Positions 788 to 36,084 of a DNA stretch of 36,084 bases are shown here, piece after piece. Source of the stretch: Phycisphaerae bacterium. GTDB lineage: Bacteria; Planctomycetota; Phycisphaerae; Phycisphaerales; SM1A02. The translations under genes were made by a program, and so were the position numbers. The stretch covers positions 6,727 through 42,810 of the forward strand of contig PAQL01000013.1 of NCBI GenBank assembly GCA_002709295.1, given 5' to 3'. The notes beneath the pieces were generated by a model that was given only the letters and a program-made list of their open reading frames with translations, did no database searches and was not told the origin of the DNA. Numbering within the stretch: position 1 is the stretch's first letter; each line of letters begins with the position of its first letter.

Positions 788-815
788 TGGGCCTCACCTT
801 GAATGGGGGATATGG

Positions 816-14410: not shown

Positions 14411-15771
14411 GCATTCTCCAGGGAGCCCGGATGGCAGCAGGAATCCTCGCCGGAGTTTGGCTGAAGGGTGCGGCGCATGGTTTGTCGGCGATCTGGTCCC
14501 ACCGAGACGAATTCAATCGGGACTCCGAGATGAGATTCCAATGAATGCAGATACGATTGACAGGCCTCTGGCAAGTCGGAGATGGATTGGCATTGGTCAA
14601 TCTCTTCGGCCCATCCCGGATGAGATTCGTAGACCGGGATGCATTCTTTGAGCAGTCGAGCGTCGGGCGGGAAGCGGTCCAAAACCTCACCTGATGCAGT
14701 CCTGTAGCCGGTGCACAGTTTGATTACGTCAAATCCGGAAAGGACGTCGAGAAGCGTAATGGCCAAGCTGTCAGCGCCGCACACCATGGCGGCGTATCGG
14801 AGGGCAACCAGGTCGATCCAGCCGCAGCGTCGTGGGCGTCCTGTTGTGGTTCCGTATTCATGCCCCCGATCTCGAATTCGGTTGCCGATGGCATCGTCGA
14901 GTTCCGTAGGGAAGGGGCCTCCTCCGACGCGGGTGGAATACGCCTTTACCACGCCAACCACCCGTCCGAGAGATTTTGCGGGGAGTCCGGTGCCGGGGGA
15001 GATCCCAAGGGCTGAAGCGTTCGAACTTGTGACATAGGGATATGTGCCATGGTCAACATCGAGAAGGCACGCGTTCGCACCTTCGAACAAGAGTGAACGG
15101 TTTTCGTTGACTCGATCGTGCAAGAGCCAGGTGGTATCGGTGATGTATGGCCGCAAACGTTCCCCCAACCTCAGCAAGTCTGAAAGGAGGGTATCGATAT
15201 CGATGGCAGAATCGTTCCCGGCCACTTTTAGTTCTTCAAGGCGAAGGGGGGCCATTTTGCCGAGGTGGGCTTTCAAATACGGCTCGTCGAGAAGATCGCC
15301 TATCCGCACGGCCATCGATCGTCCAATTTTGTCGGCATACGCTGGGCCGATGCCCCTCTTGGTCGTCCCAATGGCTTCGCCACGATTGGAGAGCCGGGCT
15401 TCGGCGGCACCATCGAGCAAGCTGTGCCAGGGCAGTACCACATGGGCTCGAGAAGAAACGTGAAAGCGCCCTTCAAGTGAGAGCCCCCGGGCTTCTACGA
15501 GTTCGATTTCTTTCACCAGAATGCTGGGGTCAATGACAGTGCCGTTGGCGATGACCAGTTCACAATCGGGGTTTAGGACCGCGCTTGGCATGAGGTGCAG
15601 CGCAAGTTTCTCGCCTTCTACGACGATGGTGTGCCCGGCGTTGGCTCCGCCATTGAATCGAACCACCACGTCGTGTTCGGCGGCCAGAACGTCAACAAAC
15701 TTGCCCTTGCCTTCGTCGCCCCACTGAAGGCCGACAATCGCAGTATTTGGTACGCCAGATTGAGATGCCAT
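14407..15771 (-). CDS. purA: Adenylosuccinate synthetase
   Basis: GTP-dependent ligation of IMP and aspartate, the first committed step to AMP. The open frame extends upstream to 16182, but that part is antisense to hemW. ATG 15771 gives MASQSGVPNTAIVGLQWGDE, placing the P-loop GDEGKGK at 18-24, as in other PurA proteins. The protein has 454 residues against about 430 in E. coli. Other signatures: FNGGANAGHTI (39-49) with H47, the GTTKRGIGPAY switch segment, the FEGAN motif, STRVGGGPFPTEL, and EYGTTTGRPRRCGWIDL. The last 20 or so residues (rich in Ser, Cys and His) go beyond the usual end and form a small extra tail overlapping the uppS start. Confidence 0.96.
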   Translation of the reverse strand: MASQSGVPNTAIVGLQWGDEGKGKFVDVLAAEHDVVVRFNGGANAGHTIVVEGEKLALHLMPSAVLNPDCELVIANGTVIDPSILVKEIELVEARGLSLEGRFHVSSRAHVVLPWHSLLDGAAEARLSNRGEAIGTTKRGIGPAYADKIGRSMAVRIGDLLDEPYLKAHLGKMAPLRLEELKVAGNDSAIDIDTLLSDLLRLGERLRPYITDTTWLLHDRVNENRSLLFEGANACLLDVDHGTYPYVTSSNASALGISPGTGLPAKSLGRVVGVVKAYSTRVGGGPFPTELDDAIGNRIRDRGHEYGTTTGRPRRCGWIDLVALRYAAMVCGADSLAITLLDVLSGFDVIKLCTGYRTASGEVLDRFPPDARLLKECIPVYESHPGWAEEIDQCQSISDLPEACQSYLHSLESHLGVPIEFVSVGPDRRQTMRRTLQPNSGEDSCCHPGSLENA

Positions 15772-15810
15772 CCTGTGCTCCTCCAAGGACGATACGATCG
15801 CTTTTGGACA

Positions 15811-16986
15811 ATGAACCTTACCAAAAATGGCCGTGCTCTCGGGGATGATCCCCGCCTGTCGCCGCCGCTTGACGCGGCCTTGGGTTTGTACGCCCACGTT
15901 CCCTTTTGTACCCACAAATGCCACTACTGCGACTTTTACAGCCTTGTTGATCAGAACGATCGCATTGGCCAATTCAGCGATCGTCTGCTCGAAGAATTGG
16001 AGCAGATCCCAGCGGGTACCGCTTTTGACACGATCTTCTTTGGCGGCGGTACACCAACCATGCTTCCTCAGAACTTTTGGGAAGCCTGGAGTGGCATTTT
16101 GTCCCGTAGGTTTGTGTTGCCCTCCGACTACGAGTGGACGGTTGAAGCGAATCCCGAAACCATTACGGCTGACATGGCCCACGCACTTGTCTCAGCCGGT
16201 GTCAACCGAATGAGTTTGGGTGTGCAGTCTTTCACCACGGGCTCTTTGCAGACCCTCGAACGCCGACATCAGCCCGAATCCGTACCGCGTGCCGTGGAGT
16301 TGTTGCGGGAGGCGGGAATCTCTCGGCTCTCTTTGGATCTGATTTTTGGTGTTCCTGGTCAGGATCTTGATGGGGTTGCCTACGACATATCAGAAGCCCT
16401 TGCGCTGAAGCCTGACCATCTGTCGGTCTACGGGTTGATCTTTGAGCCCAACACCGCGCTGACCAAACGACGCGACCTTGGCATGGTTGAACCGTGCGAT
16501 GAAGAATTTGAAGCCGAGGCCTACGAGCTGGTGGTCTCTCGGCTCCAATCGGTGGGACTTCACCGGTATGAGGTTTCCAACTTCGCTCTCCCCGGTGAAC
16601 AGTGTCGACACAACCTGAAATATTGGAAGAACAAACCATGGTGGGCATTGGGCCCGAGCTCGTCTGGCCAATTCTCCGGGGCACGATGGAAGAACCAGCG
16701 TCGACTCGATGGTTATTTGTCGTCAACGGGGTGGTGCCCCCTAGAAAGTGTTGAGATTCGCACCGGGGAATTGCATCGCGCCGAACGCTTCTTACTGGGG
16801 CTTCGACTGCAAGAAGGCCTCTCCATCGATGAGCTCGAGAGTCTTCAAGCCGGTCCGGGTTCACCCAGAGCAGCGGTGATTCGACGCATGGTTGATCGCG
16901 GCCTGTTGCATCGTGGGTCCGAACGGCTTTCGCTCACAGATCAGGGGTTCCTTCTTGCTGATCAGGTTATTGGGGAGCTCATGTGA
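15811..16986 (+). CDS. hemW: HemW-like radical SAM protein (formerly HemN-like)
   Basis: Radical SAM protein of 391 residues from ATG 15811; the open frame upstream of this is antisense to purA. The cluster-binding motif is PFCTHKCHYCDFY with C33, C37 and C40 (CX3CX2C). GGGTPT follows, then the SAM-binding NPET and SLGVQSF segments, and RLSLDLIFGVPGQ. The C-terminal part has VSNFALPG and HNLKYW, as in HemW. The cysteine that distinguishes true HemN is absent (CHYCDF ends with F rather than xC), which fits HemW, a haem chaperone inserting haem into respiratory proteins. That would suit the nearby cytochrome b558 subunit sdhC, though linkage alone is weak. The start is only 39 bases from the purA start. 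Confidence 0.9.
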   Translation: MNLTKNGRALGDDPRLSPPLDAALGLYAHVPFCTHKCHYCDFYSLVDQNDRIGQFSDRLLEELEQIPAGTAFDTIFFGGGTPTMLPQNFWEAWSGILSRRFVLPSDYEWTVEANPETITADMAHALVSAGVNRMSLGVQSFTTGSLQTLERRHQPESVPRAVELLREAGISRLSLDLIFGVPGQDLDGVAYDISEALALKPDHLSVYGLIFEPNTALTKRRDLGMVEPCDEEFEAEAYELVVSRLQSVGLHRYEVSNFALPGEQCRHNLKYWKNKPWWALGPSSSGQFSGARWKNQRRLDGYLSSTGWCPLESVEIRTGELHRAERFLLGLRLQEGLSIDELESLQAGPGSPRAAVIRRMVDRGLLHRGSERLSLTDQGFLLADQVIGELM

Positions 16987-23106: not shown

Positions 23107-24846
23107 ATGGCACGCAAGCGCCTCAAACTTGGTGAAATTCTTGTCCAGCATGGCGCTCTGACGCCGGCTGCTCTTGAAGAGGGCCTGAAATCCGCCTCCG
23201 CGGCTCGCAAGCGTCTGGGTGACGCCTTGATTGAGGCCGGCTCGTGTGATGACACTGCCATCGCGAAGGCATTGGCTGAACAAACTGGACTGCCATTTGT
23301 TGACCTCAACGACAGATCTGCAGCCCAAAGGGTTGATCTCAACCTTGTGCCTGATGACTTGCGGAAGAGATTCAAGATTGTCCCGTTGGGTGAGGACGGC
23401 GGCCGCCTGCATCTTGCCATTGGGGACCCCATGGCCCTTGATGCTCTTGACATGCTTCGCTTTCGGCTCAACCGAGAGCTGGTGATTGAGGTTGCCTCAC
23501 CCTCCGCAATCGAAGCCGCCCTTGATGGCAATGAAGGTGGAGGGGGGCGCAATTTCGATGGACAGAGCTTTGTCACGGACTCCATCGATGCTTCGGTCGA
23601 CTCATCGGTCGATCGGTCCGTCGACAAGTCCATTGATGTGGATGCGGGAGAAGACTCCCGCATGGTCACTTTGGTGAATCGTATTATTGAAGAGGCGGTT
23701 CGAAACCGCGCTTCTGATATTCACATTGAGCCCATGCCCGACCGGGTCGTGCTTCGCTACCGCATTGACGGTGTGTGTACGGTCCGAGACAACCTGCCCA
23801 AGAGGATGCAAGCCGCAGTGCTCGCGCGCCTCAAGTTGATGGCAGGCATCAACATTGCCGAAAAGCGTATTCCTCAAGACGGCCGCATTAAACTCAAAGT
23901 TGACGAGTCTCAAATTGACTTTCGGGTCTCTTCATGTCCGGCCTACCACGGCGAGTCCATCGTCCTGCGGATTTTGCGTCCCGACTCGGTACAGATTGGC
24001 CTGGCAAACCTTGGTTTTGAGCCGGATCACCTCGACATTTTTAATCGCGTGATCCGTCGGCCCAATGGCATCTTTTTGGTGACTGGCCCCACCGGCTCCG
24101 GGAAAACCACCACTCTGTACACCGCACTTGACGAACTGAACCGCCCTGACAAAAAGATCATTACCGCGGAAGACCCGGTTGAATACAACTTCAAAGGTAT
24201 CAACCAGTGTCAGGTGAGAGAGAGCATCGGTTTCACGTTTGCCTCGATTCTCCGTTCAATGCTTCGTCAGGCTCCGAATGTCATTCTGGTCGGCGAAATT
24301 CGCGACCGCGAAGTCGCTGAAATTGCCATCCAAGCGGCGCTCACGGGTCACTTGGTCTTCTCGACACTTCACACCAATGACGCGCCGAGTGCCATTACAC
24401 GGTTGATTGATATGGGGGTGAAGCCTTTCTTGGTCGCCAGTTCTATTCAGGCGATTATGGCCCAGCGGCTGGTTCGAGTCCTCTGCAAAGACTGCAAGGC
24501 TCCTGCTCAGGACCTTGATCCCAAGGAGTTGCAGCTCATTGGCATTGATCCAGATTCGCCCGAAGTAGACCAAATCATGGGACCGGTTGGTTGCCCCAAG
24601 TGTGACAACATCGGCTTCAAAGGTCGCCGTGCCATCTTTGAATTTATGAAGATGAACAGTGAGGTTCGTGATCTTGCTTTCCAACGCGCTCCTGCAGAAG
24701 AAATTCGTGCCGTTGCCATTCGAACCGGTATGAGAACTCTCGTTGATGATGGCCGCCTCAAAACCCTTGCCGGTTCAACCACGCCAGCTGAGGTTGCCCG
24801 ATTTGCTCAGGCCGAGTTCCTGACTACCGGAAACGTCGACATTTAA
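23107..24846 (+). CDS. gspE: Type II secretion / type IV pilus assembly ATPase (GspE/PilB)
   Basis: Hexameric motor ATPase, 579 residues, powering pseudopilus or pilus assembly at the inner membrane. An N-terminal GspE_N-like domain (about 1-150, with LGEILVQHGALTPAALEEGL) is followed by a linker containing five S-(I/V)-D-x units (159-178). The core has RASDIHIEPMPDRVVLRYRIDG, Walker A GPTGSGKTT (from 327), the Asp-box region ITAEDPVEY, Walker B ILVGEIRDREVAEIA and the His box GHLVFSTLHTNDA. Four cysteines (C460, C463, C496, C499) form the zinc-binding CM element found in GspE/PilB but not PilT. It is the first gene of the operon and is followed after 37 bases by pilT. Which system it drives is unclear. 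Confidence 0.93.
   Translation: MARKRLKLGEILVQHGALTPAALEEGLKSASAARKRLGDALIEAGSCDDTAIAKALAEQTGLPFVDLNDRSAAQRVDLNLVPDDLRKRFKIVPLGEDGGRLHLAIGDPMALDALDMLRFRLNRELVIEVASPSAIEAALDGNEGGGGRNFDGQSFVTDSIDASVDSSVDRSVDKSIDVDAGEDSRMVTLVNRIIEEAVRNRASDIHIEPMPDRVVLRYRIDGVCTVRDNLPKRMQAAVLARLKLMAGINIAEKRIPQDGRIKLKVDESQIDFRVSSCPAYHGESIVLRILRPDSVQIGLANLGFEPDHLDIFNRVIRRPNGIFLVTGPTGSGKTTTLYTALDELNRPDKKIITAEDPVEYNFKGINQCQVRESIGFTFASILRSMLRQAPNVILVGEIRDREVAEIAIQAALTGHLVFSTLHTNDAPSAITRLIDMGVKPFLVASSIQAIMAQRLVRVLCKDCKAPAQDLDPKELQLIGIDPDSPEVDQIMGPVGCPKCDNIGFKGRRAIFEFMKMNSEVRDLAFQRAPAEEIRAVAIRTGMRTLVDDGRLKTLAGSTTPAEVARFAQAEFLTTGNVDI
23581..23640 (+). repeat. Five 12-base coding repeats in the gspE linker
   Basis: Five consecutive degenerate 12-base units (TC-N-RTY-GAY-NNN in pattern) encode S-I-D-A, S-V-D-S, S-V-D-R, S-V-D-K and S-I-D-V. 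They lie between the N-terminal and catalytic domains of the GspE-like ATPase. The array reads as a tandem expansion of a flexible acidic linker. Confidence 0.75.
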
Positions 24847-24883
24847 CAAAAGCACCCCTTTGTCATTTCACTGAAAGCCACTT

Positions 24884-25999
24884 ATGTCCACCATCCAGAT
24901 CGACCGTCTGCTTGACACTGTGATCAAACTCGATGCTTCTGACCTCCACCTCTCCGTAGGTCGAAAACCAACCCTCCGCCTCCATGGCGGCCTCAAGAAT
25001 CTGGATACCAAGGTTCTCGATGGAGATGACACCGTGGCGCTCATGAAGCAGATCACCCCGGAACGCAACCAGCAGGAAATTCAAGAAGAGGGAGGCACCG
25101 ACTTTGGCTTTGCCTACGGCGACAAAGCTCGCTTCCGTGTCTCTGTTTTTCGCCAGCGTGGGGATCTGACGCTGGTCCTCCGCTTGATCCCCAACCGTTT
25201 GCTGACCTTCGACGAAATTGGTCTGCCTGATATCTGTAAAGATTTGATTCGGCGGCCACGTGGGCTCTTCATTGTGACTGGCCCGACGGGGTCAGGGAAA
25301 ACCACCACTTTGGCGACCATGCTCGATTTCATCAATATGAACTACGAGCGTCACATTGTGACTGCGGAAGACCCTATCGAGTACTACCACTACCACAAGA
25401 AGTCGGTCGTGAATCAGCGTGAAGTTGGCGCGGATGTCCCAAGCTTCTCTGAAGCACTCCGCCGTGTGCTTCGGTCAGACCCTGACTGCATCCTTGTGGG
25501 TGAAATGCGTGACCTCGAGACCATTGAAGCGGCGATCCGAGCGGCTGAAACTGGTCACTTGGTCTTCGCGACCCTGCACACCACCGGCGCTGCCGGAACC
25601 ATTAGCCGGGTGATTGACGCTTTCCCGACCAACCAGCAGGCTCAGGTGCGTGTCCAGCTTTCAGTGTCACTCATCGCCGTTCTTTCACAGGCCCTGCTGC
25701 GGCGTTCTGATAAGCCTGGCCGAGTTGCAGCCTATGAGTTCCTCGTGGTGACTCCGGCCATTGCCAACCTCATTCGTGAGAACAAGACCTTCCGTATCGA
25801 TTCGGCCATCCAAACCGGCAAGAAGTTTGGCATGCAGCTTCTGGACGACCACCTCTGGAGCTTCTACCAACGCAGCATGATCAGTGCCGAAGAGATGATC
25901 GACAAGAGCAAAGATCCTGGGGCACTTTCGGCCAAGATCCATAGCGAGGGCGGGGCAGTCGGCCGCATCGAATGGGACGACGACGATCTCGAGGACTGA
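24884..25999 (+). CDS. pilT: Twitching motility retraction ATPase
   Basis: PilT disassembles type IV pili by driving filament retraction; 371 residues, normal length. It lacks the N-terminal GspE domain and the zinc cysteines. Features: ASDLHLSVGRKPTLRLHG near the N-terminus, Walker A GPTGSGKTT (from 133), TAEDPIEYYHYHKKSVVNQRE, Walker B CILVGEMRDLETIEAA, and the PilT hallmark AIRAAETGHLV (217-227) followed by FATLHTTGAAGTISRVID. The C-terminus is acidic (EWDDDDLED). Its presence argues for a retractable pilus, because dedicated T2SS loci do not carry pilT. A 143-base gap before the next ATPase contains short GC-rich inverted repeats but no clear terminator. Confidence 0.95.
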   Translation: MSTIQIDRLLDTVIKLDASDLHLSVGRKPTLRLHGGLKNLDTKVLDGDDTVALMKQITPERNQQEIQEEGGTDFGFAYGDKARFRVSVFRQRGDLTLVLRLIPNRLLTFDEIGLPDICKDLIRRPRGLFIVTGPTGSGKTTTLATMLDFINMNYERHIVTAEDPIEYYHYHKKSVVNQREVGADVPSFSEALRRVLRSDPDCILVGEMRDLETIEAAIRAAETGHLVFATLHTTGAAGTISRVIDAFPTNQQAQVRVQLSVSLIAVLSQALLRRSDKPGRVAAYEFLVVTPAIANLIRENKTFRIDSAIQTGKKFGMQLLDDHLWSFYQRSMISAEEMIDKSKDPGALSAKIHSEGGAVGRIEWDDDDLED

Positions 26000-26142
26000 C
26001 CATTATTTTATTGCCCCCGCAGGGCAGTTGGACCTGTTCTCGGCCGGATGATTTGGCCGCAAATACCCACTGTCACCCTCTCTCGGCCTGCGGCCTCGCC
26101 GCATCTTCGGGTTGAGGCTCGATATTCAGGTATCCTGCCCGA

Positions 26143-27906
26143 ATGCCCGAGTCGGAAACTTCATTCAAGGCTATCCCCCCGAGTGAAATGAAGGGTCGCC
26201 GCATCGGTCGAATCTTCGTCAAGATGCAACTCGTCAAGCGTGAGCAAGTCTCCAAGGCCCTTGCCGTGCAGAAGGAGCGGGCAGAGTCGGGACAAAAGGT
26301 CAAGGTCGGTGAGGTTCTTCGTGAACTCGGCTTCGTTACTGATCACCACATTGCCTACGCCCTGGCCGGACAAGCTGGCATGCAGTTGGTCGACTTGGAT
26401 CCCGAAGCAATCCCTGCCGAAGCAGTTGATGCCCTTCCTGCTGAAACCGCCACCTCCTACCAGATCGCTCCAGTCTCATTCGATGCTGGCTCCAACCGCT
26501 TGGTGGTCGCCCTCAAGTCCCCGGACAACTTTCAGGCCATCGATAACCTTCGTTTGCTGCTGAATTTTGATGCCGTGGCGGTGATTGCCGACGCTGAAGC
26601 CATCGATCAAGTTATTGCCAAGCATTACGCCAACCAGTCTTCAGGCGCTGCCAATATTGATTTCGGTAGCGAAGAATTGTCCGCACTTGAGGGCCGAGGC
26701 GATTCTGTGGATCTCGAAGACTTGGTGCAGGCGGCCGGAAGCAGTGCGGTTGTTCGTCTCATCAATATGGTGCTGATGCAGGCCATCCGCGACAAGGCTT
26801 CTGACATTCACTTGGAGCCGTTCGAAGACGAATTCAAAATGCGTTATCGAATCGATGGTGTGCTCTACGAAATGAGCCCGCCGCCACCCCACTTGGCTAT
26901 GCCCATTGTTTCTCGCGTCAAAGTGATGTCGAATTTGGACATTGCCGAACGTCGGCTTCCCCAAGATGGCCGCATTGAGCTCACTTTGGGCGGCAACCCC
27001 GTGGACCTTCGCGTGGCGGTTCTTCCCACGATGTTTGGTGAATCCGTCGTAATGCGGGTGCTTGACCGAGGCAATGTCCAGTTGAGCCTTGACAATGTTG
27101 GTTTGCGGCCTGATGACCTTGAGACTGTTCGCGACTTGATCAAACGGCCCAATGGCATTGTGGTCGTGACCGGTCCCACCGGTTCTGGCAAAACCACGAC
27201 GTTGTATTCCTGCCTCAATGAACTCAATGACCCAGAAACCAAAATCCTCACCGCGGAGGACCCGGTTGAATACGACATTGACGGCTTGATTCAGTGTCAG
27301 ATCAACCCAGACCAAGAACTCACGTTCGCCAAATTGCTGCGGTCATTCCTTCGCCAAGACCCGGACATCATTCTGGTCGGTGAAATTCGTGACCTCGAAA
27401 CCGCGCAGATCGCGGTGCAGGCTTCGTTGACGGGCCACCTGGTATTTACCACGGTGCACACCAACGACGCGCCGAGTACCGTTCTGCGCTTGACCGACTT
27501 GGGTATGGAGCCCTTCTTGCTCACCGCCACCATTGAGGCGATTGTGGCCCAGCGATTGGTTCGCCGCATCTGTGTTGACTGCAAGCAGGCCTATGAACCG
27601 TCTGAAGAAGAGTTGATGGAGCTTGATTTAAGGCCCAGTGACGTGGAAGGTCGGACCTTCTTCCGTGGCATTGGCTGTGATAAATGCAACAATACTGGCT
27701 TCAAGGGTCGAATGGCTCTGTTTGAGATTCTGGTCATGGACGACAAGATTCGAGAATTGGTCATGCAACAAGTGTCTACCACGGTCATTCGTGACGCCGC
27801 CCGTCGGCGCGGCATGCGGACCCTCCGGGAATCCGGATTGCTGGCGATTTACGAAGGCCAGAGCACGATTGACGAAGTTGTGCGCGAGACGATCACCGAC
27901 GATTAA
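26143..27906 (+). CDS. pilB: Second pilus assembly/secretion ATPase (PilB/GspE)
   Basis: A second extension-type ATPase, 587 residues. It has an N-terminal GspE_N region (about 17-165: GRIFVKMQLVKREQVSKAL, ALAGQAGMQLVDLDPEAIP) followed by a short linker and the core KASDIHLEPFEDEFKMRYRI. Walker A is GPTGSGKTT (from 344), Walker B ILVGEIRDLETAQIAVQA, then GHLVFTTVHTNDAPS. Zinc cysteines are at C477/C480 and C512/C515. It begins at ATG 26143; ATG 26188 would start directly at MKGRRIGRIF and is a fair alternative. It is 41 bases upstream of pilC, which suggests it is the ATPase paired with that platform protein. The two ATPases share motifs but differ in linker length. Confidence 0.93.
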   Translation: MPESETSFKAIPPSEMKGRRIGRIFVKMQLVKREQVSKALAVQKERAESGQKVKVGEVLRELGFVTDHHIAYALAGQAGMQLVDLDPEAIPAEAVDALPAETATSYQIAPVSFDAGSNRLVVALKSPDNFQAIDNLRLLLNFDAVAVIADAEAIDQVIAKHYANQSSGAANIDFGSEELSALEGRGDSVDLEDLVQAAGSSAVVRLINMVLMQAIRDKASDIHLEPFEDEFKMRYRIDGVLYEMSPPPPHLAMPIVSRVKVMSNLDIAERRLPQDGRIELTLGGNPVDLRVAVLPTMFGESVVMRVLDRGNVQLSLDNVGLRPDDLETVRDLIKRPNGIVVVTGPTGSGKTTTLYSCLNELNDPETKILTAEDPVEYDIDGLIQCQINPDQELTFAKLLRSFLRQDPDIILVGEIRDLETAQIAVQASLTGHLVFTTVHTNDAPSTVLRLTDLGMEPFLLTATIEAIVAQRLVRRICVDCKQAYEPSEEELMELDLRPSDVEGRTFFRGIGCDKCNNTGFKGRMALFEILVMDDKIRELVMQQVSTTVIRDAARRRGMRTLRESGLLAIYEGQSTIDEVVRETITDD

Positions 27907-27937
27907 ATGTACCGGAGCATTCGCTCCATTCAGAACC

Positions 27938-27943
27938 AGGAGG
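27938..27943 (+). promoter_or_regulatory. Ribosome binding site fixing the pilC GTG start
   Basis: A perfect AGGAGG with 4 bases to GTG 27948. It supports the GTG as the true start. Confidence 0.75.
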
Positions 27944-27947
27944 CTCC

Positions 27948-29234
27948 GTGCCTACGTTCAAATACCAAGCCGTAACCGCCGATGGAAAAGCAACCAAGGG
28001 CACCCTTGACGCAGAGAATCTTGATGATGCTGGCGCTATGCTCCGCGCCCAGGGGCTCTTCCCCCAATCTGTGGTTCCTGATAAGGCACGCAAGCGTGGA
28101 AAGAAAGGCGTGCCTGATGCCGGCGCGGCGGAAACCAAACGCAAGAAGCCTCTCGCCTTGGGCGGGGTCTCTCAGAAAAAGCTCACGCTATTCACACGGC
28201 AACTCTCTACGCTGCAAGACGCAGGCCTTCCCCTGCTTCGATCGGTGCAGATTTTGGAATCTCAGCAGCGGGGGGGGATGATGAAATATGTGCTCGCCTC
28301 GGTGGCCGATGATGTTGCCGCTGGATCAACGCTAGCTGATTCCATGGCGCGCCACCCTGGCACCTTCGACCGTCTTTACTCCAAGATGATTGCGGCCGGA
28401 GAAGTGGGCGGTGTTCTTGATGTCATTCTGCAACGCTTGGCGGTCTTTATGGAGAAGGCCCAAGCGCTGAAGCGACGGGTGATTGGCGCCATGATCTACC
28501 CCGTGGTAGTGATCATCATTGCGGTCCTCATCGTGACCGGCATCATGTACTTCGTGATCCCCAAATTCATTGAGATCTTCAATGACTTTGAGGTTGAGTT
28601 GCCAGGCCTGACCATCTTCTTGACCGAAGCTTCGGCATGGGTTGCAGGTTCGGCGACACCTGATCAACAGATTCCAGGCGCGGCTTGGATCGTCGTCAGT
28701 CCGTTCATCATCTTCATCCTCTGGAAGATCATCAGGAAGATTGAAATCGGACGAAAGATTACCGACCGTCTGCTGCTGATCTCTCCTCCTGTTGGTGGTC
28801 TTCTGCGAAAGACCGCTGTGGCTCGATTCACTCGGACCTTGGGAACGCTCATTGCGGCGGGGGTGCCGATTCTTGAAGCCATCACGATTACCAAAGAAAC
28901 CAGTGGCAACAGTGTGTTTGAAGACGCACTGGGCAAGGTGCACGACTCGATCCGCGAAGGCGAGTCATTCGCCGAACCTCTTCGGAAGTCAAAGGTGGTG
29001 GATGAACTCGTGGTCAATATGATCGAGGTCGGTGAAGAAACCGGTGACCTTGACGTCATGCTTATGAAAGTCGCCGACAACTATGACGAGGAAGTTGATG
29101 TTGCGGTGCAAGGCTTGACCAGGCTGATCGAGCCACTCCTTGTGGTATTCCTCGGTGGCGTCATTGGCACCATCGTTCTGGCGTTGTTCCTGCCTTTGGT
29201 CAAAATGATCGAATCGGTGTCTCAAGGTGGTTAA
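27948..29234 (+). CDS. pilC: Type IV pilus / T2SS inner-membrane platform protein
   Basis: Polytopic platform protein (PilC/GspF family), 428 residues, start GTG with a perfect RBS. It begins MPTFKYQAVTADGKATKGTLDAE, the typical GspF opening, and has two repeated T2SSF domains at about 78-205 (FTRQLSTLQDAGLPLLRSV) and 282-405 (FTRTLGTLIAAGVPILEAI). Membrane segments are near 180-205, 240-260 and 395-420. A lysine/arginine-rich linker (45-70) is present. The platform transmits ATPase motion to prepilin extraction. The stop overlaps the first prepilin gene by 8 bases, tying assembly machinery and pseudopilins into one transcript. Confidence 0.94.
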   Translation: MPTFKYQAVTADGKATKGTLDAENLDDAGAMLRAQGLFPQSVVPDKARKRGKKGVPDAGAAETKRKKPLALGGVSQKKLTLFTRQLSTLQDAGLPLLRSVQILESQQRGGMMKYVLASVADDVAAGSTLADSMARHPGTFDRLYSKMIAAGEVGGVLDVILQRLAVFMEKAQALKRRVIGAMIYPVVVIIIAVLIVTGIMYFVIPKFIEIFNDFEVELPGLTIFLTEASAWVAGSATPDQQIPGAAWIVVSPFIIFILWKIIRKIEIGRKITDRLLLISPPVGGLLRKTAVARFTRTLGTLIAAGVPILEAITITKETSGNSVFEDALGKVHDSIREGESFAEPLRKSKVVDELVVNMIEVGEETGDLDVMLMKVADNYDEEVDVAVQGLTRLIEPLLVVFLGGVIGTIVLALFLPLVKMIESVSQGG

Positions 29235-30375
29235 GTTCCACCGCGGTTCACGGACATCCCGTTCTGGGTTCACTGTTATTGAACTCTTGGTCGTGATTGC
29301 CGTCATCATTGTGCTCACGGGCCTCCTGCTCGCGGGTCTCCGTGCGGCCACTGGAGCCGCCCGGGATGCAGATTCCAAATCTCGATTCCGTGCCATTGCC
29401 CAGGCGCTTGCTGCCTTTCAAGGTGATCACGGGTACTTCCCCCCAATTTTGCGGGGAGGACTTCTGTCGGATCGCAATGGGCCCGCCTGGAGTGATGTGG
29501 TGCCGAATCCATCACCTACTTCCGACTACTCGATTGATATTCAGTCTTGGTATTCCATGACCGCGCTCCCGGAGTACCTGTTGGGTGCTGGTGGGCGTGA
29601 CATTGACGGTTACGGTCAGTATGACGGGGACAGCAATTCAACCACCGAACGTCCCGCCTTAGGCATTCGCTCTCCTGGTTCAGACGGAGCATGGGGCAGC
29701 ACCCTTTACGCCTCCGGTCCAAACAACAACCTTCCGGTCGGCGCGGCGCTTCAGGAGGATCGACTGCGTGCCTTTTACGTGGACCCCGACGCAAACCCTT
29801 TTTCGATTCGCTTCCGACGTCCGGGGCCGGTGTATGGCCCTTATCTAGGTCTCGAACAGGCGGGCTCTCTGGGCAAAATTTTACCTTCGAATGCAACCTG
29901 GTCTGTGAATGATCAGGAGCCTGAGCCCGTCCAGCTGATCACCGAAAATGATCTGGCGTGGACCGATCCCGCGGCACGCTTGGTCATGCTCGACAGTTAC
30001 GGCAACCCTATCGAGTACTTCCGCTCGCCTTATGCGCCGGGGCAGCTCTCCAAACGAGATGTTCGTGACTTTCTTGGCGGCCCAGATCTTCCCGACGACT
30101 CCGATTACCAGCCCTCAACACTTGCCGATGTCATACGCCTTCGCCCCTTCACCTTCACGGCTGATGAGTCGGTCGATGGCGACGGGACTGGAGCATTTGA
30201 CTCTCGCCTGGTTGATGACCTAGGGCCGGAGGCGAGAGACATCCCTGGTTCAACCACTCTGGCCCTGAAGACGGCCCGATGGGCCCTGTTCTCTGGAGGT
30301 GCTGATAAGACCTACAACCCATGGGTCCGCTCTTCCGAGTTGAACGAAGACAACATTGTGGAGATTGGAAAATGA
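29227..30375 (+). CDS. Large prepilin-like protein, GspG-like
   Basis: Class III-type prepilin of 382 residues, start GTG. A short basic leader ends SRTSRSG and is followed by FTVIELLVVIAVIIVL, so prepilin peptidase should cut after G14, leaving F at +1 and E at +5. The helix continues into RDADSKSRFRAIAQALAAFQGDHGYFPP, the GspG-like pattern in which the alpha-helix leads to a YxxDxGxYP motif. Typical GspG is about 140 residues; this protein has about 300 more. It contains aspartate-rich loops (DIDGYGQYDGDSN, and DGDGTGAFD near the end) that could hold calcium. The end (LFSGGADKTYNP) resembles the GspG/DUF1559-type terminal motif. It is coupled to the next gene by ATGA. Confidence 0.82.
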   Translation: MVKFHRGSRTSRSGFTVIELLVVIAVIIVLTGLLLAGLRAATGAARDADSKSRFRAIAQALAAFQGDHGYFPPILRGGLLSDRNGPAWSDVVPNPSPTSDYSIDIQSWYSMTALPEYLLGAGGRDIDGYGQYDGDSNSTTERPALGIRSPGSDGAWGSTLYASGPNNNLPVGAALQEDRLRAFYVDPDANPFSIRFRRPGPVYGPYLGLEQAGSLGKILPSNATWSVNDQEPEPVQLITENDLAWTDPAARLVMLDSYGNPIEYFRSPYAPGQLSKRDVRDFLGGPDLPDDSDYQPSTLADVIRLRPFTFTADESVDGDGTGAFDSRLVDDLGPEARDIPGSTTLALKTARWALFSGGADKTYNPWVRSSELNEDNIVEIGK

Positions 30376-31304
30376 GACGCGCATTGACTCTCATTGAGCT
30401 CGTTGTCGTTGTTGGCATTGTTCTGATTCTGGTTGCTTTGGTGACCAGCTCATTCTCGTCCATCATCTCTCGCTCCGAAGCGGCGAAAACAGAAACGGCG
30501 ATGCAGCTCTTGAGTGCAGCCGTCGACGCCTATGAGCAAGGCACTGGGAACAAAATCACCTTGTCCCGCCGAGCTGCTGATCTGGGGGGGACTGAGCTGG
30601 GACCTGAGCCGCCCAGCCCCGAACAATTGCGCCGTGGCGTTCAGCTTTACGGCATGCACAGAAACGGTTCGCATTTCCTGACCACGGCAGAGCTGACACG
30701 GCAATTGCTTACGTATCAAGAGTCCGCTGATATTTTGGCCAAAATTGACCCGTCACTACTCTTTCCGATTCGATTTGACGCCGTCAATCCTCCATCTTGG
30801 GTCCCTTCACCACCGACGTTTGAGTGTGAACCAGACCTCAATAAAATTTTTGCACAGGCTCGGTGGAATGCGGCGTGTACTTGCCAAGTGGGCGAAGATC
30901 CCTTTTCAGGGAACTACAACCCGTACTGCCTAAATACGGCCCTGCTTGTCCTTGATTCATGGGGTCAACCCATCCGCGCAATCCATCCTGGACCACTCGC
31001 TCAAGTCGGCCCCAACGGTCTGTTGTCTCCCGATTCTTTTCCTGCGCTTACCGCCGATGGAGCAGGGCTCGACCGGGTGATGGATCAACCCAGAGACGCC
31101 GACGGAACCGTGTCCCGCCTTGCCGAGTTCCAGTATTTCGGTCAGGGGTCGACTGACGGGCAAATCCGATTCGTTAGCGCAGGTCCTGATTTGAAATTCG
31201 GCCAGCGGGTGGTCGGTACCAACGGGAATTCTGCCGAAGTTGCCAATCCCGATTGTTTTCGTAACGCCCTAGATAACGTCTTCTTTGGAGGAGGGACCCC
31301 ATGA
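30372..31304 (+). CDS. Prepilin-like protein with Ala at the cleavage site
   Basis: Second prepilin-like protein, 310 residues. ATG 30372 overlaps the previous stop by 4 bases; further upstream would be inside the preceding gene. The leader is only MRRA, followed by LTLIELVVVVGIVLILVAL, so the -1 residue is alanine and +1 leucine, with E9 as the conserved +5 glutamate. An alpha-helix (SRSEAAKTETAMQLLSAAVD) ends in AYEQGTGNKI. The C-terminus has five to six cysteines (FECEPD, AACTCQVGED, NPYCLN, NPDCF) that could form disulfides. FVSAGPDLKFG near the end resembles the GspG-like terminal loop. It may be a second G-type or a core/tip subunit. Confidence 0.75.
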   Translation: MRRALTLIELVVVVGIVLILVALVTSSFSSIISRSEAAKTETAMQLLSAAVDAYEQGTGNKITLSRRAADLGGTELGPEPPSPEQLRRGVQLYGMHRNGSHFLTTAELTRQLLTYQESADILAKIDPSLLFPIRFDAVNPPSWVPSPPTFECEPDLNKIFAQARWNAACTCQVGEDPFSGNYNPYCLNTALLVLDSWGQPIRAIHPGPLAQVGPNGLLSPDSFPALTADGAGLDRVMDQPRDADGTVSRLAEFQYFGQGSTDGQIRFVSAGPDLKFGQRVVGTNGNSAEVANPDCFRNALDNVFFGGGTP

Positions 31305-32278
31305 GACGCCGTGGATTCACTCTCATTGAACTCCTGGTGGCTATGGGCATCATTGTTCTGCTGAGCGCTATTGCCCTGGCGTCTACTCGAAACATTCGCA
31401 GCGGGCTCCGCCTTTCCGGCGGTGTCAACACTGTCACCGCCGCTCTTGAGCTTGGTCGTTCGCTTGCCATTCAGAATGGTGAGCCCGTTCTTGTGGCTTT
31501 CCGGCCGAAGGTCCGTGCTTCCGACAATTCACCTCCGAGTAGCTCAAATTGGCCTCCGCCCCAAAGCACTTCGTTTGTTGAAATCACCATCATGAAGTGG
31601 TCTGGTGATACCTTCAGATTTCGGACCGCGAATAACTCTGGGGGGTGGGATGGTGGATACTCCGTTGACCGGTGGATTCCGTACCCTCAGATCAAAACTT
31701 TCCCCCTGCCTGATGATGTTTGTGTCGCCGCCCCACGATTTTTTAGGTTCAATGACAACGGTGACGACGACTTCGTGGTGACCGGCGACTTTGTCGCGTT
31801 TGGTAATGGGCTGTCTTATGGAGCTGGCGGCGCCAGTGGCTTCCCGTTCGAAGTGCCCGCCATTCTCTTTGATCGAACTGGAGCCGTCGCTGTCAACAAC
31901 CCGGACTCGAGCGCTCAGGGGCCTTGGCTCGATTGGGATGGCACCCCAGATGCTTTGCCGAGGGTTGCTCTCGGTTCTCAGCAGATTGCGTCAACAAATA
32001 ATTCAAATCTTATTTTCAATGTTCCTCGTTCCACTGGTCAAATGTACGCCACCTTGGATGTGCGCGATGAACCGTTTGCTGGTGTTTCCCCCTTCATCAC
32101 CATCTACGACCAGACCAAAGCTTTAAGCGCTGTGTTCACCCAGTCTGGCACACCGACCCTCGAGGAGTACCAGCGGGATACCTTGGTCACTGGCAACAAT
32201 ACGGCCAACATCATTTTTGCCTTGCGCGAGGGGCGCCAAATTTCCTTCAACGCCTACAGCGGGGTGGTGCTCAAATGA
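31301..32278 (+). CDS. Prepilin-like protein, GspH/FimT-like
   Basis: 325 residues, ATG overlapping the previous stop. Leader MRRRG, then FTLIELLVAMGIIVLLSAIAL, a canonical site (G5/F6, E10). The helix continues with STRNIRSGLRLSGGVNTVTAALELGRSLAIQNGEPVLVAF, which is the GspH/FimT arrangement: a segment of roughly 25 residues with LxxARxxAIxxxxPV, ending in a conserved LVAF-like strand. Typical GspH is about 150-200 residues. A central loop with FNDNGDDDF looks calcium-binding. The C-terminal part has LREGRQISFNAYSGVV, like the terminal beta strands of GspH. It lies between a G-like and an I-like gene, in T2SS order. Confidence 0.78.
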   Translation: MRRRGFTLIELLVAMGIIVLLSAIALASTRNIRSGLRLSGGVNTVTAALELGRSLAIQNGEPVLVAFRPKVRASDNSPPSSSNWPPPQSTSFVEITIMKWSGDTFRFRTANNSGGWDGGYSVDRWIPYPQIKTFPLPDDVCVAAPRFFRFNDNGDDDFVVTGDFVAFGNGLSYGAGGASGFPFEVPAILFDRTGAVAVNNPDSSAQGPWLDWDGTPDALPRVALGSQQIASTNNSNLIFNVPRSTGQMYATLDVRDEPFAGVSPFITIYDQTKALSAVFTQSGTPTLEEYQRDTLVTGNNTANIIFALREGRQISFNAYSGVVLK

Positions 32279-33585
32279 TGAACCGTCGCGCTTTCTCTCT
32301 CATTGAAGTCCTCATGAGCGTCTTCATTCTCGGTATCGGCGTGATCGCGATTGCTTCTTTGCTGCCTGCAGGCATTCGTCAACAACGAGCTGCTCGAGAC
32401 ACTTCAGTTGGCCCGGTGGTCGCGCAGTCTGCCATTGGCCTTTTGCGTTCCAAGTATTCCCAAGACACCTTTGGTGGCGACGACATGGGCTTTGACTGCG
32501 GTGCATCGTCGACATCCTGTCAAGGCGGCACCGGATTCACCAACGATTATTTTTGCCACCTGGCTCCTGGAGATTTTGGCTGGACGAGGCCTGCCCGATG
32601 GTCTGCCAATGCCCTTTCCAGTGTTTCAGTGTTTGACACTGCGGCCAACCAGCAGGTTGCTTTTGCCCCTCGTGGCGCGGTGCACCCCTTCATTGGCCCG
32701 CCTTCGGTTCAGGGCCAAGGTGGAACCGATTCGATGTGGTGGCCTTCAACGGTTCCAAACTACCCCGATGCCCAGTCATCTCTGGACCCGCTTGACCCGT
32801 GCTTTAACCCCTTTTTGCGATCCGGTGAAGGGTTTACCAACAATCAGGCGCCCGCACCGTTCTTCACTCGAAACATCCCCGTCAATGATGCCGACTATCC
32901 TTGCGGCGCTATTCCTTTGGTGGACATCCTTGGTGTCACCGATGTCTCATCTCTTCCTCCCGACGGTCAAAAGCCATTCTCTTGGTTCATCCGGCAAGAA
33001 GAACGGCAATGGCCAATTGGTGCCACTACCCCCGAGTACTACTGGGACTGCATGTTCCGCCGCACCAACGGAGTTGTTGAGGTGGCCATCTTTGTGTACC
33101 GAGTCATTGGCGACCAAATCGGAGGTCTTACCGATGCCGTTGAAGACGGGTACCTCTCTCCGGGCTCCCGTCGGCCTCATGGCGTCTGGCTTCCCCGCGA
33201 AGCCTGCGAGAGCGCACCTCTTTTTGGAGAGAACCACTTTCTCGTGAGTGGTCAGACCTTGGTCACAAATATTCAGTCACCATCTCCATTCGACACCTCC
33301 GGCCTTGGCTACATGGACTCGCAGTGGCAAGCGCCCGGCCAACTTATTCTTGATGAGCACGGCGGGGTGCACCGCGTGGTTCGTGGGCGAACTCGAGAGG
33401 GTGAGACCAGGATTGAATTTGCGGATCCGCTCTTCACCCCACCGGCGGAGCGTGATTTTCTGAACACGCTAGGCGGTCCCGATGCTTCGGAACGCACCCC
33501 CATTCGCCAGATTTGGTTCATCCCAATCCTCGAAAGAGGCGGTCGACGAATGGAGCCCGTCTACATCTCCGTGGAGACTCTTTGA
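32275..33585 (+). CDS. Prepilin-like protein, GspI/PilV-like
   Basis: 436 residues, ATG ATG start with 4-base overlap to the previous gene. Leader MMNRRA, then FSLIEVLMSVFILGIGVIAIASL, so cleavage would follow A6 (Ala at -1) with E11 at +5. SLIEVLxxxxILxxGxxA is the GspI/PilV signature. The C-terminal region is far longer than the usual 100-150 residues and cysteine-rich (DCGASSTSCQGG, YFCHL, LDPCFN, YPCGA, YWDCMF, EACES), suggesting a disulfide-stabilised exported domain. NGVVEVAIFVYRVIG and LILDEHGGVHRVVRG are further beta-like segments. The stop codon and next start share one base (TGATG). Confidence 0.77.
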   Translation: MMNRRAFSLIEVLMSVFILGIGVIAIASLLPAGIRQQRAARDTSVGPVVAQSAIGLLRSKYSQDTFGGDDMGFDCGASSTSCQGGTGFTNDYFCHLAPGDFGWTRPARWSANALSSVSVFDTAANQQVAFAPRGAVHPFIGPPSVQGQGGTDSMWWPSTVPNYPDAQSSLDPLDPCFNPFLRSGEGFTNNQAPAPFFTRNIPVNDADYPCGAIPLVDILGVTDVSSLPPDGQKPFSWFIRQEERQWPIGATTPEYYWDCMFRRTNGVVEVAIFVYRVIGDQIGGLTDAVEDGYLSPGSRRPHGVWLPREACESAPLFGENHFLVSGQTLVTNIQSPSPFDTSGLGYMDSQWQAPGQLILDEHGGVHRVVRGRTREGETRIEFADPLFTPPAERDFLNTLGGPDASERTPIRQIWFIPILERGGRRMEPVYISVETL

Positions 33586-35189
33586 TGAACCGACGCGGCT
33601 TTACTCTCATTGAACTGCTGGTCGCCATTCTGGTGCTCCTTGCGGTCCTACTGGCTTCCGGTCAGATTTTCAGCGCGACTTCCAAAGTTGCCGGCCTTGG
33701 CGAAGCCAATTCTGACGTTAACGCAGATCTGCAGGCTTTTGAACGTTCGATTCGCGACGATCTTTCCGCGATATCTCGGGACGGTTTTCTAATGATCCGT
33801 TCTGTTGCGGTTCGCAACGATGTCCGTGGTACTGATCCCGCAACGACCATTCTTCTTGACAGCACCCTTCCTTCCGACCACATTTTTCGTTGCGATCAGT
33901 TGTTGTTCTTCCGAGAAGGCATCTCTGGTTCAAAAAACTATGGGCTTTCCTCCGGTGCGAACAACCGTGGTCGATCCGCAGCCCATCGTGTGTATTACGG
34001 ACATGCCTTCCAGTTGGGAGATGCGGCCCTGCCTCCAGTCGGATCCGCCTACGTTGGCGTTAACCCAAACACCAACCGGTTCCAGTTGATTCCTCCATGG
34101 GCTGATTCAGGCACCGTTGGCAATATTCCTCTGAGTAACTTTGACGCCGAGACGCCAGAAAATGAAGCTGGAAGTGGCGCAGGAACGGCTCCGCTTCCCG
34201 CCGTCCCGGCCAATGAATGGTTGTTCTCCCGGCAGGCGTTCATGATGGCTGACGACGGGGGGGTTTCTTCTTCGTATCGATATCTGGATGGCCCTTACAA
34301 CCCCGGCCAAGCGTTGTGGGGCGGCGGTGTGGTGGTGACCCCATCGATTTTTGTCCGTCCCCCGTTCCCCTTTAATCCAATCGGACGTGCGGAGTATTTC
34401 GGCGGGGTGGGAGGCCGCGTCGACGCCGCTGGCATGTCGATTCGAGGTGCAATTGAAACTCTCGATGATTTTGCTTCTCAGGCCGATGGAAATGTCTTGG
34501 CGAACAACCATTACTGGCGCCGTCAGTTCGTGAGTCGATATGGGCTGTACTGGCCTCGCGGGGAAGCTCGATCACCCTCGACCTCTCGTGTCTCCTTTCC
34601 TTTGACCCGCCACATCATTGCCGCCTCCTGCAGCGATTTCCAAGTTGAATGGGCCTGGGCCGATGGAACAGGGTCCATCTCCCAGTTCCCCAATGAGCCG
34701 TTCTTGGAGCAGGGCGTCACCAACCTCCCTGGTCAAAGTTGGTACCCACGCCTTGCCGAGGATGTTGACGAGCCTCTCTTCATTCCCGCATCGGCCACAC
34801 TGAATTACCCCGGTGGACTTCCCATCCTTGCTGATGGCGGTGAGCGAGTCTTCGCCGATTTCGAGCAGTTCCCAACTGCTGGTGAACTCTCAATACTTGG
34901 CTTGGTGCCAGGCAAGACTGCGGTGTACGAGGCGTACTTTGGCACCAACTCCACCCAGCCCTTCGTGCGTCCTGAAAATCCAACCGTAAGCAACGTTGAT
35001 GTCAATGGGGATGGCGAACCGGACGACATTCCTGGTGTTCTTGATATCAGAGATTTTCGCGGTGACTGGACGCCATGGCCCACTGCGATTCGCGTTACTG
35101 CCACCATCCACGACCGACTCGGCCGACTGGCCGCCGGCCAAACGACCCAATTTGTTGTGACCCTTCCACGAAGAGGTGTTTCCGAATGA
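33585..35189 (+). CDS. Prepilin-like protein, GspJ/PilW-like, very large
   Basis: 534 residues, ATG 33585 sharing one base with the preceding stop. Leader MNRRG, then FTLIELLVAILVLLAVLLASG, a canonical site (G5/F6, E10). The helix runs into KVAGLGEANSDVNADLQAFERSIRDDLSAISRDG, matching GspJ/PilW, where the helix is followed by an LxRDLxxx segment. Usual GspJ is about 200 residues. The C-terminal domain has many Gly, Pro and Asn residues, a dockerin-like loop DVNGDGEPDD (codons 34998-35027), and a final IRVTATIHDRLGRLAAGQTTQFVVTLPRR strand segment typical of PilW ends. The stop overlaps the next gene by 4 bases. Confidence 0.78.
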   Translation: MNRRGFTLIELLVAILVLLAVLLASGQIFSATSKVAGLGEANSDVNADLQAFERSIRDDLSAISRDGFLMIRSVAVRNDVRGTDPATTILLDSTLPSDHIFRCDQLLFFREGISGSKNYGLSSGANNRGRSAAHRVYYGHAFQLGDAALPPVGSAYVGVNPNTNRFQLIPPWADSGTVGNIPLSNFDAETPENEAGSGAGTAPLPAVPANEWLFSRQAFMMADDGGVSSSYRYLDGPYNPGQALWGGGVVVTPSIFVRPPFPFNPIGRAEYFGGVGGRVDAAGMSIRGAIETLDDFASQADGNVLANNHYWRRQFVSRYGLYWPRGEARSPSTSRVSFPLTRHIIAASCSDFQVEWAWADGTGSISQFPNEPFLEQGVTNLPGQSWYPRLAEDVDEPLFIPASATLNYPGGLPILADGGERVFADFEQFPTAGELSILGLVPGKTAVYEAYFGTNSTQPFVRPENPTVSNVDVNGDGEPDDIPGVLDIRDFRGDWTPWPTAIRVTATIHDRLGRLAAGQTTQFVVTLPRRGVSE

Positions 35190-36084
35190 TGCCTTACTCC
35201 ACAACCCGTCGACGAGGCAATGCCATTGTGCTGGCCGCCTCCATCCTCGTCTTGTTGGTGATTATCGCCACCACATTTGTGTCCCGCACCCAGACCGCGC
35301 GTCGCACGGCCAGCGCGGTCCAACGTGACGCGGCCTCTGAGACCTCTTTTGACGGCATTGCAGATTCGCTTTCCACTTTGGTCTCAGATGCCCTGTTTGT
35401 TCGGCTGATTGACGCCCATTACGATCCGTTTGCGGGCGACAATCCTCAAAATACGTTTGCGATTCCAAGAACATCGTGGTCTTCCCGTGATCCTGAGACC
35501 GGCTCAACACTTGGTCAGCAAGTCATCCCTGAGGTCCGCGGCGTTGTGTCCCAACTTCCCACGGAAATCGCGACGGGGGGGCAAGGCCCGCCCATGTCTC
35601 GGCTTGGCATCCCTTCTGAAAACCCTGGTCTTCGGGAGGTCTCGGATCCGAATCGCCCCAGAATCCCCGCGAAAGACGCCAAACTTGGCACCGCCTTCGG
35701 TGACCTCGTCGCAAGATTCAATCTTGAGTCTGCGGCCTCTTGGTCGTATCCGGATCGGGCCACATTTGAATCCGAATACAACCCAGATGACCCCTTCTTT
35801 TCACCGGCAACTGCTCCAATCACTGACTCCGGAATCAAACTTGGCCGCGCTCCAAGTTGGCTCAAACGTTACGGAGTGGACCCACGGTTCCCGGCCAACT
35901 TTGCCCCCTACGAAGTTGTTCCCTGGACGAACTGGCCAGATCGTCCCTTGTATCCATGGTCCCCATCGAATGGTGGTAGTGGCTTGCGGGGGCATTTCAA
36001 TGCCCCTGAAACCTTCACCCCAATTTTCTCCTCCGCCAATCCACTGTCACCGTTCGAAGACCTTTACCAGACCGCGGGTGGCCC
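35186..36084 (+). CDS. GspK/PilX-like protein, partial
   Basis: An open frame starts at ATG ATG (35186), overlapping the previous stop, and runs to the right edge without a stop; about 299 residues are visible. The N-terminus is MMPYSTTRRRG followed by NAIVLAASILVLLVIIATTFV. The cleavage site would be after G11, and the +5 glutamate of ordinary prepilins is absent, as expected for GspK and PilX. It then has SRTQTARRTASAVQRDAASETSF, a helix like that of GspK after the membrane segment. Position after G, G, H, I and J agrees with K. The visible remainder is proline- and aspartate-rich with no recognised domain. Confidence 0.72.
   Translation, partial: MMPYSTTRRRGNAIVLAASILVLLVIIATTFVSRTQTARRTASAVQRDAASETSFDGIADSLSTLVSDALFVRLIDAHYDPFAGDNPQNTFAIPRTSWSSRDPETGSTLGQQVIPEVRGVVSQLPTEIATGGQGPPMSRLGIPSENPGLREVSDPNRPRIPAKDAKLGTAFGDLVARFNLESAASWSYPDRATFESEYNPDDPFFSPATAPITDSGIKLGRAPSWLKRYGVDPRFPANFAPYEVVPWTNWPDRPLYPWSPSNGGSGLRGHFNAPETFTPIFSSANPLSPFEDLYQTAGG

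Follow-up and report, generated by a model that had tools for sequence, protein, structure and literature searches.

Organization of the locus

The stretch of DNA analysed here (the window; 36,084 nucleotides, G000:C13:6727-42810) belongs to contig PAQL01000013.1 of a Phycisphaerae bacterium assembly (GCA_002709295.1) and ends in a row of genes for a type IV filament system, all on the + strand. Gene calls and family models confirmed what an earlier note on this DNA had proposed, that two PilB-type ATPases, PilT and PilC are followed by six prepilin-like genes in the order G, G', H, I, J and K. The row opens with PilB-a, a PilB/GspE-type assembly ATPase of 579 aa with an N-terminal MshEN domain (23107..24846; Pfam T2SSE 2.1e-128, MshEN 6e-16), the PilT retraction ATPase of 371 aa (24884..25999; NCBIfam PilT/PilU family), a second assembly ATPase with an MshEN domain, PilB-b, of 587 aa (26143..27906; Pfam T2SSE 9.8e-139, MshEN 1.9e-14) and the PilC/GspF inner-membrane platform protein of 428 aa (27948..29234; Pfam T2SSF 6.7e-63). 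Then come a GspG-like prepilin of 382 aa with a GTG start (29227..30375; NCBIfam GspG 4.3e-7, residues 13-73), a second GspG-like prepilin of 310 aa, whose ATG at 30372 overlaps the stop of the preceding gene (30372..31304; NCBIfam GspG 3.1e-6), a GspH/FimU-like prepilin of 325 aa (31301..32278; NCBIfam GspH 1.7e-7, Pfam N_methyl 1.3e-7), a GspI/PilV-like prepilin of 436 aa (32275..33585; NCBIfam PilV 1.9e-7) and a GspJ/PilW-like prepilin of 534 aa with long head insertions (33585..35189), assigned from a structure model and from a generic prepilin model (2.8e-5). The last gene, termed K, is predicted to encode a GspK-type giant tip pilin; the window holds its first 299 codons (ATG at 35186; 35186..36084), and the frame runs on, stop-free, to C13:49567, giving a protein of 2551 aa. 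The motor genes are separated by spacers of 37, 143 and 41 bp, and all junctions from pilC onward overlap by 1-8 bp, so the row is taken as one operon.

Among 19 window proteins scanned (small open reading frames, ORFs, lay outside the scan) there is no secretin, GspL/M, GspC or prepilin peptidase, as the earlier note had stated; for GspC/L/M the negative covers the window proteins, no genome-wide search having been made. An ordinary type II secretion system (T2SS) or type IV pilus (T4P) operon directly downstream, which that note had named as a refuting case, was absent from C13 up to about position 61,000, read by eye. We give a probability of roughly 0.56 to the reading that the operon encodes a type IV pilus that possesses PilT and bears I-J-K at its tip, where the enlarged K would serve as a contact or adhesive structure.

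Family assignment of the motors and prepilins

The retraction ATPase is the most clearly assigned component, since it scores 433 bits against a cut-off of 319 in the NCBIfam PilT/PilU family. PilB-a scores higher with the NCBIfam PilB model (581 bits) than with GspE (554.5 bits), both below cut-off, and the best model for PilB-b is likewise PilB (618 bits, below the equivalog cut-off of 675 bits), with GspE second. The platform protein gives a tie of GspF (377.6 bits) and PilC (377.2 bits), both below cut-off, and is thus indistinguishable as PilC or GspF by family models.

Family matches of all five prepilins upstream of K are confined to the N-terminal region (NCBIfam). A profile built from 24 relatives of the first GspG-like prepilin matches solved pilins across the N-terminal helix, and the I-like pilin gave no convincing match in a sequence search of the PDB. 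The lengths of 310-534 residues given by the earlier note hold for these five, while K is larger than the window shows; all are at least two times larger than what we take to be the usual sizes of T2SS pilins. In relatives the mature lengths, from G to J in gene order, are 317-454, 211-297, 272-356, 341-485 and 445-647.

The GspJ-like pilin and the giant K protein

The structure model of J combines a helix of 54 residues with a beta sheet (mean predicted local distance difference test, pLDDT, 62; predicted template modelling score, pTM, 0.70), with pLDDT <50 for 195 of its 534 residues. Out of 992 aligned chains eight reached Z >=2, and all eight reached Z >=8. The six entries listed (Z 8.2-9.2) are GspJ, EpsJ (two), XcpW, the Xcp pseudopilus (XcpGHIJK filament) and Thermus thermophilus TTHA1219, the last being the top match; those to XcpW, EpsJ, GspJ and the Xcp pseudopilus have Z 8.2-8.9 over 135-177 aligned residues. 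In a plain Foldseek search the Xcp pseudopilus chain ranks first as well, at E 0.29. As modelled, the fifth pilin is a GspJ-like pilin fold with long internal insertions. The suggestion that each pilin carries a large extra domain therefore stands as to the enlargement, but in J, the one complete pilin modelled, the insertions lie inside the head and no single domain is appended; similarly, of an ordinary pilin fold with a disordered tail, the other refuting case that had been named, the model has the ordinary fold and lacks the disordered tail.

K was compared over 45 rows, which come from 40 distinct genomes, five of them present twice. Its N-terminus is prepilin-like and lacks Glu5 in all 45 (40 scored by script and 5 by eye, the script using a filter unable to score a Glu, so that the rows it left out were read by eye). 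Position 5 is Leu in 36, Met in two, Val in one and Ile in one of the scripted rows, and Leu in three and Phe in two of those read by eye. A D-x-D-x-DG motif is present in 42 of the 45 rows, and two others are each found in 41, namely G-x-N-x-NTA late in the sequence and RSD-x-F at the C-terminus; motifs of these types we take to be marks of GspK. Pfam T2SSK exceeded its cut-off in one of seven K proteins scanned singly, a compact K (8.2e-10), which also matched NCBIfam GspK at 9.2e-17, with 61.5 bits against a cut-off of 130. In a set of 15, T2SSK was matched by three K (at 0.05) and NCBIfam GspK by four. K reaches 3225 aa in relatives, and mature lengths in the window's relatives span 1380-3212 (one K cut by a contig end included). 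Long K frames recur in many genomes, single-contig ones included, which rules out an error in a metagenome-assembled genome (MAG) as their origin.

For residues 221-1409 of a smaller K a model was obtained with mean pLDDT 51, better over about residues 421-770; 643 of the 1189 residues are at pLDDT <50. Foldseek found no match to it at E 0.001, and the K alignment had no convincing match in the PDB sequence search. In a second-look structure comparison the top place went to a DUF4876 protein of Bacteroides (Z 8.2), followed by 11 lamin tail entries at ranks 2-12 (Z 7.2-7.9, 101-112 residues) and then by a drop to Z 4.7 at rank 13. Pfam LTD was matched below cut-off by two of 15 K. Between the outer motifs, 29 of the 45 rows show a loosely defined N-P-aromatic pattern, although in two of these (L107 and its duplicate L221) it looks false. 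Since Foldseek found nothing at that threshold, the lamin tail is supported by the second-look aligner and the weak Pfam matches, and it is likely, not proven, that K contains a lamin-tail-like beta-sandwich module.

An enlarged tip pilin might alternatively be the DNA receptor of a DNA-uptake pilus. This role has been suggested for ComZ of Thermus, a pilin that resembles GspK, binds DNA through a large inserted domain and is placed at the tip in the part of the source available (PMC6561018). PilT-driven retraction would be compatible with such a function, and the top match of the J model is itself a T. thermophilus protein, but the fold suggested for K is lamin-tail-like and not a beta-solenoid, and we consider DNA uptake improbable.

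Length co-variation of K with the pilins

One may ask if the insertions have any function at all, or if this is an ordinary type IV pilus whose subunits carry functionless flexible insertions, as the low-confidence residues of both models and the wide range of mature K lengths among the window's relatives could suggest. Lengths were compared in 21-23 named loci, leaving out the incomplete K of L212 and L213. With no tree, K length correlates with pilin lengths at rho 0.62-0.88 (p5 0.88, p9 0.87, p7 0.72, p8 0.65, p6 0.62), compared with 0.14 for PilB-b and 0.23 for PilC, which are a rough control, their lengths being taken from ORFs with untrimmed starts. When contrasts were computed on the PilB-b/PilC tree, K and J (p9) still changed together (contrast r 0.84, sign-flip p 0.002, n=20), a result that survives Bonferroni correction for seven tests; K and I (p8) gave r 0.61 (p 0.037, n=22), p5 gave 0.68 (p 0.19), p7 (0.36) and p6 (0.17) were not significant, and PilB-b and PilC showed no signal. 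The co-change of K and J is as expected of partners. This co-variation, the better-modelled module inside K and K frames of at least 844 aa in nearly all class genomes with listed lengths (see below) speak against functionless insertions, and the thin alignments (19 and 22 rows) also depress pLDDT, so that this explanation appears the least probable of those considered.

Recurrence in Phycisphaerae and beyond

The earlier note thought that the system may be lineage-specific, which was not supported. A two-sequence K profile matched 95 of 198 class genomes and a profile of ten compact K matched 187 of 198 (151 of the 155 high-quality ones); 187 is an upper figure for giant K, because this profile also detects ordinary-sized GspK-like proteins, and some of the weaker matches may be ordinary GspK. 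Where a frame length was listed, K is at least 844 aa in 101 of 103 class genomes, with a maximum of 3237, the two exceptions being G039 (frame cut at the fetched ends) and G076 (uncut). All 19 neighbourhoods fetched for a K match hold a K frame, and PilB-PilT-PilB-PilC precedes the pilins and K in each of the 14 that reach PilB-a (in six with PilB-a partial), although not each pilin gave a match in every one. The named collection comprises 50 loci, 26 of them of at least 15 kb, from records of named planctomycetes or unclassified MAGs; here PilB-b, PilC, pilins and K follow one another in 24 of the 24 loci reaching PilB-b, with all five pilins matched in 23.

The K profile also hits 119 of 272 genomes from outside the class, among the matches listed mostly by the N-terminal helix only. 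Three complete genomes of family f48 carry the four motor genes, five genes of prepilin type and one for a K-like protein (1569-1649 aa) side by side, so that the search of other Phycisphaerae and Planctomycetota genomes which the earlier note had proposed did find the same order, within the class and in another family of the phylum. Such recurrence places the arrangement beyond chance and rules out a system unique to the source organism. Motors were not seen in ten of the 15 out-of-class neighbourhoods fetched (one of them f48); genes in GC-rich DNA may have escaped the ORF calling. Two out-of-class loci, L249 (G253) and L252 (G402), encode K-like proteins in frames of 1734 and 1640 aa. Prepilin-like genes are adjacent and, read by eye, so is a PilM-like gene, with motor genes not seen in the stretch.

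Origin of the contig

Contig C13, 109 kb long, probably entered the bin as contamination and stems from a different Phycisphaerae organism. Its GC content is 0.545-0.566 against 0.633-0.673 in the other bin contigs sampled, and its tetranucleotide correlation with the window is 0.97-0.98 within C13 against 0.57-0.86 elsewhere in the bin. Contig C9 of the same bin carries a second operon of identical order, whose K is 33% identical to that of C13. In a tree of PilB-b and PilC the C9 operon groups with a Phycisphaerales MAG, and C13 branches off alone where the base of that family's clade is unresolved. GC content, tetranucleotide profile and the second operon thus rule out taking the bin as the window's own genome complement, and its matches (5 secretin, 14 T2SSF, 2 A24 peptidase, 26 N-methyl) are not all creditable to the window's organism. 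One secretin domain of the bin (G000:C12:240185-240682) lies in an open frame of 4774 aa; secretin domains in G167, G002 and G032 are also found in open frames, of 4634-4856 and 4557 aa, and these giant frames may be real proteins or long open frames of GC-rich DNA.

Alignment complex, secretin and exoproteins

In ten single-contig relatives secretins (4-10 matches each) and PilM (1-5) are present throughout, and each has a long PilM in a frame of 687-825 aa. In all nine loci fetched the long PilM is followed, as read by eye, by two proteins that each have a single hydrophobic stretch near the N-terminus; these had no Pfam family in two pairs scanned and no convincing match in the PDB sequence search. 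Of the 198 class genomes, 188 have a match to a profile of the long PilM. G193 was the one relative scanned with family models; its long PilM scores above the cut-off of the TIGR01175 PilM model, against 4.9e-4 for GspL, and matches the Amuc_1101 family at 3.9e-69. The stand-alone long secretin of G193 matches MshL, GspD and PilQ, all below cut-off, and weakly Amuc_1098 (1.7e-13). The long secretin and long PilM lie at different places in the nine genomes fetched, and many further ATPases and secretins are encoded in the relatives' genomes. PilY1 (PF05567) was found in three of 198 class genomes, in two above cut-off, the best match being 3.3e-42 in G108; to our knowledge PilY1 is not universal among type IVa pili (T4aP).

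A different function has to be weighed here, namely a T2SS-like secretion endopilus, in which a filament within the envelope pushes proteins through the secretin and PilT only shortens the piston. PilC and three pilins have their best match, or one tied for best, in GspF, GspG and GspH, and K is of GspK type, whereas T4aP PilX is without the GspK insertion, according to the portion of the source consulted (PMC7248040). Exoprotein-like genes occur near the operon too: close behind K, outside the window, C13:50320-56123 encodes a protein of FG-GAP repeats that ends in a dockerin-like region and also an M12-like metalloprotease, and C9:101671-104901, after the K of C9, a single protein that combines FG-GAP repeats and an M12-like domain. 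Such a gene is clear on C13, on C9 and in four of 25 named loci and weak in two, but 19 of the 25 have none close behind K, which rules out a conserved exoprotein gene at this position; PilT is present, PilB is preferred over GspE, and the dispersed actin-like protein of the relative scanned passes the PilM cut-off, PilM being favoured over GspL. An endopilus is thus judged unlikely, with the surface pilus tipped by K preferred. The exoprotein-like gene of L203 is far off and on the other strand. As to the other neighbours, purA (adenylosuccinate synthetase) lies upstream on the opposite strand (window 14407-16182) and, read by eye, is among the first ORFs behind K in nine of 25 named loci; positions 690-5359 of the window encode an HlyD-type membrane fusion protein and AcrB-type RND efflux pump pair.

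A proposed retractable filament with an enlarged tip

In the mechanism that we propose, the PilB-type ATPases would extend the filament on the PilC platform by adding G-like subunits and PilT would retract it. As in known systems, the I-J-K complex would prime assembly and remain at the tip, with K as its cap. Large insertions in the heads of J and K would give a bulky, surface-exposed tip, whose probable role is contact (adhesion) as a substitute for PilY1, nearly absent from the class, and the alignment complex and the secretin would be supplied by other loci, i.e., the PilM/Amuc_1101-like three-gene cluster and the MshL/PilQ/GspD-like secretin. The data thus support what the earlier note had outlined, a filament system that has enlarged tip subunits and a motor for retraction; we infer the joint working of the parts, the tip position, retraction and the adhesive role, with K as a candidate unusual surface hook or adhesin.

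Several observations weigh against this reading. The link of PilM and the secretin to the operon rests on near-universal presence, and co-occurrence cannot prove that they serve it, because both are near-universal; the PilY1 model is also without a match in 14 control genomes. The window's K has no Pfam match and meets GspK only at E 0.83, the link to GspK being made via relatives, and the K profile also detects ordinary-sized GspK-like frames of 443 aa (G018) and 463 aa (G076). The K model is of low confidence (pLDDT 51), GspK is absent among its matches listed, and the second-look aligner warns that Z <8, the range of the lamin tails, may reflect merely a common arrangement. The neighbourhoods were chosen by K match. 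Two genomes fetched for motor genes instead of K depart from the pattern. In G143 about 960 kb separate PilB-a and PilT from the group of PilB-b, PilC, pilins and K (1314 aa), and a second K frame of 1086 aa has no motors seen nearby (L258, L259), which shows that splitting of the operon and duplication of K can occur. In the stretch fetched from G002, PilB-PilT-PilB is followed by no match to PilC, a pilin or K. In family f66, which lies outside the class, PilT (two of two genomes) is missing from the row, which reads PilB-PilB-PilC, pilins and K of 862-875 aa.

Comparison with known systems

Initially, the T2SS order of the pilins was taken in the earlier note as a sign of a hybrid. FimU-PilV-PilW-PilX, the minor pilins of T4aP, are homologues of GspH-I-J-K, and I-J-K is the known T2SS tip trimer, as stated in the sections of the source available to us (PMC7248040); the order is thus not diagnostic of a T2SS hybrid, T4aP minor pilins being the same set. 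Nor is the absence of a secretin and PilMNO from the locus abnormal for T4P, because in a survey consulted in part 99% of T4P are spread over several distant loci and 96.5% of T2SS lie in one (PMC4793230). With T4aP the operon shares PilT, PilB- and PilC-type proteins and H-I-J-K-type minor pilins, PilM and the secretin being elsewhere in relatives; it differs in that two PilBs flank PilT, pilin and motor genes form a single row, K is GspK-like and measures 1.4-3.2 kaa in the window's relatives, and PilY1 is almost absent. With the T2SS pseudopilus it shares the pilin order, the GspJ fold of the J model, a K without Glu5 and matches of some K to GspK models, but PilT is present, the partner in relatives is of PilM type and GspC/L/M are not seen in the operon.

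Large domains inserted in or grafted on minor pilins are already known from Thermus ComZ and Streptococcus sanguinis PilB, and we rate the K-bearing operon as a variant of that theme. The most extreme multi-domain example given in the accessible part of a modular-pilin survey has 860 residues, that part stating no length record (PMC8179133), compared with 2551 aa for K and up to 3225 aa in relatives, with a probable lamin-tail-like module. That survey, as far as its text was available, found proteins by the N-terminal motif IPR012902 (PMC8179133), and K may escape such a search. K proteins of this kind could be the largest type IV pilin-like subunits known. The nearest named relative of the idea is the Verru_Chthon cassette A-D (TIGR02600, 02598, 02599, 02596), to which all matches are weak and far below cut-off: three of 15 K match protein A (TIGR02600) at <=0.01, the best at 0.0022, and all five window pilins match the B, C or D models weakly (best of each 1.1e-5 to 0.035). 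The Akkermansia Amuc_1098-Amuc_1101 complex resembles the dispersed components, as the long PilM of G193 matches Amuc_1101 and its long secretin weakly Amuc_1098, but the G193 matches are below the equivalog cut-offs and the long secretin stands apart from the long PilM in nine genomes. The open-licence literature, which leaves most subscription journals outside, yielded among the titles listed no publication on this operon, nothing on giant GspK in Planctomycetes or on Verru_Chthon and, for a lamin tail domain with a pilin in bacteria, one haloarchaeal paper.

A wider generalization is offered more tentatively, and we hold it to be rather doubtful: that Planctomycetota, and perhaps the wider PVC (Planctomycetes, Verrucomicrobia and Chlamydiae) group, possess a type IV filament tipped by a single giant GspK-class pilin. 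This pilin, of 0.85-3.2 kaa, would have a core resembling a lamin tail, would take the place of both the GspK cap and PilY1, and would grow in step with J, its partner. If the proposed model is true, a large environmental class of bacteria carries filaments tipped by proteins of the size of big adhesins on a pilin scaffold, and the idea of modular pilins would be extended well past the surveyed examples. It would suggest how a lineage nearly without PilY1 has a specialised tip, and it would offer a direct test of very large tip subunits passing through a secretin by means of the pilus machinery.

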